Assembly (NCBI GenBank): GCA_014237925.1
Contig: JABACB010000004.1
Span: 7,572-49,902 of the forward strand
Length of the DNA stretch: 42,331 bases
DNA from: Alphaproteobacteria bacterium
GTDB taxonomy: Bacteria > Pseudomonadota > Alphaproteobacteria > JABAAW01
Direction: 5' to 3'
A model generated the notes under the pieces. It had not been told where the DNA came from, searched no databases, and was given only the letters and a program-made list of their open reading frames with translations. Below, piece after piece: positions 21,327 through 23,604 of this stretch (its first letter is position 1; every line of letters starts with the position of its first letter). The translations under genes were made by a program, and so were the position numbers.

Positions 21327-23546
21327 ATGACGCAGCCTTCTCAAGTCCGCAAACCCGTGTGGCATCCCTCAGAGGAGCGCATCGCAGGTACGCCGTTGCA
21401 CGATTTTTGCAAAAACCACACGCCTTTTCACGCTCGTGGTGCACCGCGCCAAAAGACCGATTACGAGGCACTCTTGCGCTGGTCGCTTGCGGACGGCGGA
21501 GATTTTTGGCATGCCTTGTGGCGTTTCGCCAATGTCGCGGGAGAGACAGGCACCCCCCCCTTCGTCGAAGCGGGAGAGAGGATGGCTGCGACAAGGTTTT
21601 TTCCGCGTGCAAGGTTGAATTATGCCGAGAACCTTCTACGCGGAGACGACAAGCAGAATCACGAGGAGAACGACAAGCAGAACGACGAGGAGAACGACGA
21701 GCAGATCGTCCTCTCCAGCTGGCTTGAACAAGGCGAGCCAATACAATGGAGTCGCAAGACCTTGCGCGCCAAGGTTGCAGCGTGTGCGCGTCTGTTGCGA
21801 AAGGCGGGCGTGCAACCCGGCGACAGAGTCGCCGCCGTTCTGCCGAACGGGATCGAGGCGGTCGTAGGCATGCTGGGCGCAACCGCGCTCGGTGCGGTAT
21901 GGACAAGCGCCTCTCCCGATTTCGGCGCAGTCGGCATTCTCGATCGCTTTTTGCAAACGCGCCCGAAGGTGTTGCTGCTCGCCTGTGGCTATGTCTACGG
22001 CGGAAAATTCTTCGACCGTCGCAAAGAGATGGAGCGCGTGATTCGCGGCTTGCCTTCGTTGCAACAAGTCTTCGTCGCCACGAACGCACGCTGTGGCAAC
22101 GATGTCGCCTTTGCAGCCGACATCGTCTTGGCGCAGGGCAAGAGGCTTCCCATCCACCCCTTCATCGAATCCTTGGACGCGGAGCAGGCACGCGATGCCT
22201 CGCCGCCTCGCTACCATCCTCTTCCCTTCGACCATCCCTTGTGCATCCTCTACTCGTCGGGGACGACGGGTGCACCGAAGTGTATCGTCCATCGTGCGGG
22301 CGGGGTGTTGCTGAAACACATCTCGGAGCATCGTCTTCACGCCGACATCAGGGCTTGCGACCGCGTCTTTTTTTTCACCACCTGCGGCTGGATGATGTGG
22401 AACTGGCTTGCAAGCGCACTCTTTTGCTCTGCGCGCGTCGTGCTTTACGACGGCTCGCCCCTGTTCGACGAAGGACGCAGGCTGTGGCAGATGGCGGAAG
22501 AAGAAGAACTGACCCACTTCGGCGCGTCCGCCAAATACTACGCTGCGTTGGAGCAATCGGGACTTGTGCCGCGCGAGGCGTTCGACACGACAAGCCTGCG
22601 CACGACGCTTGCGACAGGTTCGCCGCTTGCGCCCGAAGGGTTCGATTTCATGGCGCACGCGCTGTCGTCGTCGAAGCCTTTCCCTTCTTCGATCAGCGGC
22701 GGCACGGACATCTGCGGTTGTTTCGTGATGGGTTGTCCGAGCCTGCCCGTCTATCGCGGCGAGATCTCTGTTGCGGCATTAGGCATGGCGACCGAAGTCG
22801 TGTGCGAGCAGGCAAAGCCCGTGCTGGACAGGCAGGGCGAGCTGGTGTGCGCGCAGGCATTTCCTTCCATGCCGTTGGGTTTTCTCGACGACGCGGAGCA
22901 ATCGCTTTATCGCAGCACTTACTTTGAAAAATTTGCTACGCGCGACCTTTGGCATCAAGGCGACTATGCCGAGCAGCACAGCGCGAGCGGCGGCTTTACG
23001 CTCTTCGGACGCTCGGATGCGACGCTCAATGTCGGCGGCGTGCGCATCGGCACCGCCGAGATTTATCGACAGACCGAAAGCATGGAGCAGATCCTGGAGG
23101 CGGTCGCCGTCGAGCAGACCCTTCCCGACGCATCGACGCGCATCCTGCTTTTCGTACGGCTGGCGGAGGGAAGCGTCTTGGACGAGCGTTTGCGCCGAAA
23201 CATTGTCGAGCGTCTGCGCAACAATTGTTCGCCGCGACATATTCCGTCGCGCATTTTTGCCGTCGAGGATATTCCGCGCACGCGCTCCGGCAAGATCACC
23301 GAGACGGCGATCCGCGACGCGATCGCCGGGAAAGCGATCGACAACCGCCACGCGCTTGCCAACCCTGACGCTTTGGAGGCTTTGTGTGCCGTCGTTGCAG
23401 CAGAGCAAAAGGCTTGCGAAGAAGCCGACCACAAATCTGGGGCAGTCTTGACTGGGGCAGCCAAGGCTGGGGCAGTCTTGACTGGCACAACCAAGGCTGG
23501 GGCAACCAAGACTAGGGCAGATTTGAGGGGACAGCAGCGTGGCTGA
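21327..23546 (+). CDS. Acetoacetyl-CoA synthetase with repeat insert and repeat tail
   Basis: Activates acetoacetate with CoA and ATP (ANL superfamily; commonly aacS or acsA). 739 residues against about 650 for the family. Visible motifs: PVWHPSEERI at the start, LNYAENLL, the AMP-binding P-loop LYSSGTTGAPKCIVH near residue 308, CGWMMWNWL, SGGTDICGCF, GRSDATLNVGGVRIGTAEIY, and the catalytic Lys in RTRSGKITE near residue 657. Residues 108-126 are an acidic Asn/Gln/Glu insert from a 24-bp repeat. The last 35 residues come from a 15-bp array that continues into sufE. ATG at 21327 has no clear ribosome binding site. It may work with the 3-hydroxybutyrate dehydrogenase at 35132 in ketone-body use. 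Confidence 0.93.
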   Translation: MTQPSQVRKPVWHPSEERIAGTPLHDFCKNHTPFHARGAPRQKTDYEALLRWSLADGGDFWHALWRFANVAGETGTPPFVEAGERMAATRFFPRARLNYAENLLRGDDKQNHEENDKQNDEENDEQIVLSSWLEQGEPIQWSRKTLRAKVAACARLLRKAGVQPGDRVAAVLPNGIEAVVGMLGATALGAVWTSASPDFGAVGILDRFLQTRPKVLLLACGYVYGGKFFDRRKEMERVIRGLPSLQQVFVATNARCGNDVAFAADIVLAQGKRLPIHPFIESLDAEQARDASPPRYHPLPFDHPLCILYSSGTTGAPKCIVHRAGGVLLKHISEHRLHADIRACDRVFFFTTCGWMMWNWLASALFCSARVVLYDGSPLFDEGRRLWQMAEEEELTHFGASAKYYAALEQSGLVPREAFDTTSLRTTLATGSPLAPEGFDFMAHALSSSKPFPSSISGGTDICGCFVMGCPSLPVYRGEISVAALGMATEVVCEQAKPVLDRQGELVCAQAFPSMPLGFLDDAEQSLYRSTYFEKFATRDLWHQGDYAEQHSASGGFTLFGRSDATLNVGGVRIGTAEIYRQTESMEQILEAVAVEQTLPDASTRILLFVRLAEGSVLDERLRRNIVERLRNNCSPRHIPSRIFAVEDIPRTRSGKITETAIRDAIAGKAIDNRHALANPDALEALCAVVAAEQKACEEADHKSGAVLTGAAKAGAVLTGTTKAGATKTRADLRGQQRG
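21553..21560. repeat. C8 homopolymer in the acetoacetyl-CoA synthetase gene
   Basis: Eight C coding for the Thr-Pro-Pro-Phe stretch in the conserved N-terminal region. A slip would truncate the enzyme early. Confidence 0.85.
21648..21704 (+). repeat. 24-bp repeat, two copies and a partial third
   Basis: Two 24-bp copies (21648-21671 and 21672-21695), nearly identical, then a 9-bp partial copy. They code for DKQN-(H/D)EEN units in the loop just after LNYAENLL of the acetoacetyl-CoA synthetase. Confidence 0.9.
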
Positions 23547-23604
23547 GACAGCCAAGGCTGGGGCAGCCAAGGCTGGGGCAACCAAGGCTGGGGCAGCCCT
23601 TGCC
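23439..23604 (+). repeat. 15-bp tandem array across the acetoacetyl-CoA synthetase/sufE boundary
   Basis: Eleven units related to GGGGCAGCCAAGGCT. Ten are 15 bp and one (23529-23544) is 16 bp. Units 1-6 code the tail of the synthetase (Gly-Ala-Val-Leu-Thr and Gly-Ala-Ala-Lys-Ala types). The 16-bp unit contains the sufE GTG start and the first base of the synthetase stop. Units 8-11 code the N-terminus of SufE in the same repeat phase, although the two genes use different genomic frames. Confidence 0.95.

Follow-up and report, generated by a model that had tools for sequence, protein, structure and literature searches.

In marine Beggiatoaceae, direct repeats of the heptamer TAACTGA overlap gene ends and ribosome-binding sites and, once, two overlapping open reading frames (PMC4679880). 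Overlaps between neighbouring genes form more commonly through elongation of the 3′ end of the upstream gene (PMC3887535), and an earlier study of prokaryotes, as it is cited in PMC2621210, found sequence repeats to be skewed towards gene termini.

Here we analyse a window of 42,331 nucleotides from an alphaproteobacterial genome in which a 15-bp tandem array runs from the end of an acetoacetyl-CoA synthetase (AACS) gene into the start of sufE. As in the Beggiatoaceae, tandem repeats are plentiful in this one bacterial genome; there, however, a single common 7-bp motif recurs, mostly intergenic and with stops in all forward frames (PMC4679880), whereas here most arrays have a unit of their own, and the junction array has a period of 15, two coding arms and a single locus. 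The upstream stop has been replaced and the 3′ end overlaps the next start by a few bases, as in overlaps formed by 3′ elongation (PMC3887535), but here the elongation came with in-frame insertion of repeats and not by point mutation at the stop codon alone. In all four genomes compared, the stop and start codons either overlap or are a few nucleotides apart, an arrangement that resembles termination–reinitiation pairs (PMC10666635), although the overlap is 8 nt here against a commonest spacing of −4 or −1, and the likeness is one of geometry. With bacterial coding minisatellites and VNTRs the array shares a period that is a multiple of 3 and low-complexity tails at protein ends; it differs from them in that the density of arrays is far above that of most Alphaproteobacteria sampled and in that one array serves two genes. 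The junction array belongs to known kinds, and its particular trait is that one locally born coding repeat is read by two genes in the same phase.

One array encodes two protein ends

The source genome is a draft MAG of 1.97 Mb in 409 contigs (86% complete), and the window lies inside contig C354. The operon order is hemF, AACS, sufE, all on the forward strand, with a short hypothetical open reading frame and an rluD-like gene beyond it on the opposite strand (Table 1); the congeners bin19p and bin27s share the hemF–AACS–sufE order, with rluD past sufE. AACS is identified by NF002937 (E = 2e-230, residues 8–691), TIGR01217 (E = 4e-207) and PF00501. Its catalytic model extends to residue 691, with the repeat tail following from about residue 705, the protein being ~45 residues longer than in congeners. 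SufE matches PF02657 (E = 2.8e-41), with the domain starting at residue 29, and is 67–73% identical to its counterparts in three congeners across most of its length. As delimited by the family models, both arms of the array lie outside the folded AACS and SufE domains.

Table 1 Features of the hemF–AACS–sufE operon and of the junction array (window positions)
Feature	Position	Strand	Evidence or sequence
hemF	20216–21277	+	
Acetoacetyl-CoA synthetase (AACS; acetoacetate–CoA ligase) gene	21327–23546	+	NF002937, TIGR01217 and PF00501 matches
Left arm of array, six 15-bp units (CTGGGGCAGTCTTGA / CTGGGGCAGCCAAGG types), AACS C-terminal tail	23437–23526	+	
GAGGGG, presumed Shine–Dalgarno (SD) site of sufE	23525–23530	+	8 nt before GTG; anti-SD duplex
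16-bp segment between arms, carries sufE start codon and +1 offset	23527–23542	+	GGGGACAGCAGCGTGG
sufE gene, GTG start	23539–24015	+	PF02657
AACS/sufE overlap, 8 nt	23539–23546	+	GTGGCTGA
Right arm of array, four 15-bp units, SufE N-terminal linker; last unit fades into ancestral LADVQ	23543–23602	+	

The array spans 23437–23602 and has a TRF score of 131; shuffled DNA yields 0.8 arrays per 100 kb at scores of at least 50. Left-arm units begin at 23437, 23452, 23467, 23482, 23497 and 23512 and right-arm units at 23543, 23558, 23573 and 23588, the final one grading into unique sequence. The last ~35 residues of AACS come from the left arm together with the 16-bp segment, and the first ~22 of SufE from the right arm. 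The segment shifts the register between the arms, and this puts the repeat in one codon phase for the two genes. The original prediction that one array encodes both the AACS tail and the SufE start agrees with these coordinates (residues ~705–734 of AACS, ~2–22 of SufE) and with the translations: AACS reads the left arm as GAVLT/GAAKA/GAVLT/GTTKA/GATKT/RADLR, SufE reads the repeat as (ET)AKA-GAAKA-GATKA-GAAL, and both translate the unit as Gly-Ala-x-x-x, in the identical codon phase that had been claimed. Also as described there, the 16-bp unit holds the sufE GTG (23539), and in the register 23529–23544 the AACS stop codon TGA (23544–23546) starts at its last base. The phase used (Gly-Ala-Ala-Lys-Ala) contains no stops (TTGA-type units) and no tryptophan.

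The copies stand head to tail above chance and the period is divisible by 3, so that each gene keeps its frame through the 15-bp units of both arms without stops, as in a VNTR-like, in-frame coding minisatellite. AACS and sufE share bases on the same strand in different frames (GTGGCTGA) and constitute a unidirectional overlapping gene pair. A TGA at 23524 closes off the sufE frame on its upstream side, which leaves GTG 23539 as the earliest start available; that frame has no other ATG, GTG or TTG until 23620. A SufE start at the downstream GTG 23620 is unlikely; the LADVQ upstream of that codon is conserved in relatives.

Mean distances between units are 4.3 within AACS, 3.0 within sufE and 4.0 between the arms. 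The arms do not form two separate groups of units, as 39% of partitions are equally separated and identical copies occur on both sides, and two independent births of one 15-mer are implausible. Because the arms share one pool of units, copies would have passed over the start segment, whether by slippage, template switching or conversion. In its own genome the unit has a single match, at this locus, and no related 15-mer above chance was found among the other 15-bp arrays in the 490 kb sampled. A mobile or dispersed coding insert, such as the palindromic elements of Rickettsia, was rejected, given that the unit occupies one locus only.

The gene boundary is older than the array

We compared the junction with that of three congeners, bin19p (L023), bin50o (L022) and bin27s (L024), all genomes of the genus being draft MAGs. 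The contig of the closest congener, bin109s, stops within sufE, which keeps variation in array length, and the arm that arose first, out of view. In all three congeners AACS is directly followed by sufE as a separate gene, without the 15-bp array. AACS ends in ...LAEQEGG in bin19p and ...LAGQEGG in bin50o, with the sufE ATG 4 nt past the stop in each (TAA-GAGC-ATG and TGA-GGTT-ATG, respectively), and in bin27s the AACS stop and sufE start overlap in GTGA; the stop–start spacings over the four genomes are −8, −4, +4 and +4. A GGAGG stands 5–8 nt ahead of each congener sufE start, and sufE is +1 relative to AACS in two of the three (bin19p and bin50o), as it is in the window. The left-arm repeat is absent from AACS of bin19p and bin27s, whose C-termini are complete, and from the AACS 3′ end of bin50o.

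Because the congeners have separate genes, with the +1 offset in two of them, both the boundary and the offset are older than the array, and the 16-bp unit therefore keeps the offset and did not make it. The original prediction had left two histories side by side. The first, growth of the array across an old gene boundary, is borne out by the three array-free congeners. In the second, the boundary was the work of the +1 unit, possibly through the splitting of an AACS–SufE frame that had once been fused, and deleting one base does give an 895-codon frame. The suggested one-base removal works for deletions at 23527–23537, but it would do so for any abutting genes that are one base out of frame. 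In each of the three congeners that carry the junction, the genes are separate and have start signals of their own, and sufE is already offset by +1 in two of these genomes; in the nearest genome outside the genus (G005) the AACS and sufE matches are on different contigs, and no fusion occurs among the genome matches examined. A split of a fused gene is accordingly unsupported, and we hold it to be extremely improbable. The prediction had also named an observation that would speak against it, the same 16-bp unit and boundary in relatives free of surrounding repeats: the relatives have the boundary and the frame offset, and their 16-bp sequence is different. In another genome, G038, the sufE match sits in a long open frame that had the look of a fusion, and the sequence read there is not a fusion.

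The linker of SufE differs between the congeners and the window. Its length is close to that of bin19p (22 against 21 residues before DVQ), suggesting that the repeat replaced or rebuilt a pre-existing linker. The bin50o sufE linker (L022:174–240) carries a different, 12-bp repeat (GCAAGCAAAGCC, ASKA), evidence that repeats have turned over at this linker in a relative too. Other insertions are present in hemF, AACS and rluD of the relatives.

The start segment between the arms

GAGGGG lies where the original prediction placed the ribosome-binding site of sufE, and its computed duplex with the anti-SD sequence (−8.4 kcal/mol) is the best within 23420–23620, although the predicted ribosome pairing is weaker than in relatives (−11.4 to −11.9 kcal/mol). 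The distance from site to start, 8 nt, is equal in the window, bin19p and bin50o. The further claim that this site is itself repeat sequence fared less well: the gapped score of the 16-bp segment against the repeat units is equalled by ~16% of its own shuffles (p = 0.16). Compared with the congener leaders, the 16 nt that precede the start codon agree at 9/16, 9/16 and 5/16 positions (shuffle p ~0.037, 0.033 and 0.68). We lean, tentatively, towards the segment being a remnant of the old start region rather than a degenerate repeat.

The whole stretch, start segment included, could instead be one array that grew over the old junction, its original ribosome-binding site and start having given way to new ones built from a mutated 16-bp unit. 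The segment aligns with gaps to CTGGGGCAGCCAAGG as GGGG-CAGC--C..GG, GAGGGG resembles TTGA+CTGGGG minus CT, the arms adjoin the segment without a gap and have identical units in common, and identity to the congener leaders is not strong. The match of segment to unit is nevertheless at chance level, and a fresh site would have had to re-hit by chance both the 8-nt spacing and the +1 offset of the relatives, which makes this account possible but doubtful.

The 16-bp unit might also be an assembly or sequencing artefact, with the true genome fused or carrying another array, in a draft MAG of 409 contigs in which repeats are error-prone. Such an error seems improbable to us: the units have diverged enough for assembly, the offset matches that of relatives, a plausible site stands upstream of the GTG, and both proteins have full domains.

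Repeat load of the genome

Tandem arrays have proliferated throughout this genome. We counted them in 490 kb of it (G000), taken in stretches, and found 382 arrays with a score of at least 50, or 78 per 100 kb, against 0.8 per 100 kb when the same search was run on the dinucleotide-shuffled genome; arrays make up 4.7% of the sampled bases. The congeners sampled have 12–55 arrays per 100 kb, the nearest outside genome has 22, and eleven other Alphaproteobacteria have 0–32, mostly 0–15, in samples of only 20–40 kb each. The density of 12–15-bp arrays is extraordinary in the source genome and in congeners G003 and G004, and lower (12.5) in congener G001; in the first three, most arrays have a unit of their own. 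Lost mismatch repair was rejected as the cause of the load, since all five genomes of the genus have MutL and four of them MutS. recA, present in four congeners, had no match in the source MAG, for which incompleteness of the MAG is the likelier reason.

The arrays have a frame-preserving bias: the period is divisible by 3 in 181 of 194 arrays in called genes (93%) and in 74 of 153 intergenic ones, the gene calls coming from a simple codon-usage caller, such that some 'intergenic' arrays may sit in missed genes. Five arrays touch two genes, against 6.3 expected by random placement, and the AACS–sufE array is the longest of the five; as two-gene arrays are not enriched, the junction array is an occasional, expected product of such a genome. 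Thirty arrays lie over one gene end, against 18 at random, an excess perhaps due to the higher density of arrays outside genes.

Other arrays occur in the window. A 15-bp array at 20231–20351 (8 copies, CAGCAGGATGCCGAG) encodes extra residues at the N-terminus of HemF, whose gene belongs to this operon; the congeners lack this repeat at that place, and their hemF insertions sit further in. An 11-bp repeat at 21302–21336 (AGCATGACGAC, 3 copies) spans the hemF–AACS junction and contains the AACS ATG plus two more ATGs upstream, so the other junction of the operon is likewise repeat-made. Within AACS, an in-frame 12/24-bp array at 21638–21705 (DDKQNHEENDKQNDEENDEQ) lies between conserved blocks; bin19p and bin27s have none there, and the insertion of bin50o is short and of another sequence. 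A 14-bp array of ~7 copies at 29462–29553 has a period that is not divisible by 3.

Fusion potential

Because both arms are in the same reading phase, slippage from one arm to the other would fuse the two genes in frame, and 24 of 24 possible unit-to-unit deletions between the arms would join AACS to SufE. The two-armed array might then act as a fusion switch, in which slippage takes out the AACS stop along with the start of sufE, and fused and unfused forms may coexist in the population; we give this little credence. If it were true, arrays in a repeat-driven genus could turn operon neighbours into fused genes. That the array is a selected contingency locus, in which slippage between the arms fuses the proteins and changes within an arm alter linker length, we find barely credible, even though the fusions from all 24 between-arm deletions are uninterrupted. 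A shared phase arises by chance in one case in three and is also the harmless phase, AACS and SufE are housekeeping enzymes, and arrays are everywhere in the genome, with no enrichment of those touching two genes.

Origin and significance

It is highly probable, in our assessment, that the repeat grew across an older gene boundary and that the start segment was retained. Before the array arose, the genus already had AACS followed at once by sufE, with a ribosome-binding site of its own and in the +1 frame. A 15-bp minisatellite, born locally and not derived from a mobile family, would then have multiplied on either side of the translation-start segment, the likely route being replication slippage together with local template switching or conversion among repeat copies; the presence of copies on both arms would imply a jump across the non-repeat start segment. 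Selection for SufE translation would have kept that segment, so that the old +1 offset survives as an apparent '16-bp unit'. The copies would have been tolerated, and be close to neutral, because a period of 15 is divisible by 3, because neither folded domain contains them and because their phase is without stop or tryptophan. The site thus gives the impression of a side effect of repeat growth that the cell tolerates, rather than of a newly split gene. Judging from the geometry of the overlap and from described pairs (PMC10666635), translation of sufE is probably coupled to termination of AACS through ordinary termination–reinitiation. The array itself most likely does nothing special, and adds a low-complexity tail to each protein beyond its folded part.

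The junction shows cleanly how a minisatellite rewrote the sequence on either side of a gene boundary and yet left the frame offset intact and a ribosome-binding site in place. With arrays at nearly 5% of the sampled DNA, the genus lends itself naturally to testing how repeats extend proteins, create overlaps between genes and maybe fuse neighbouring genes.
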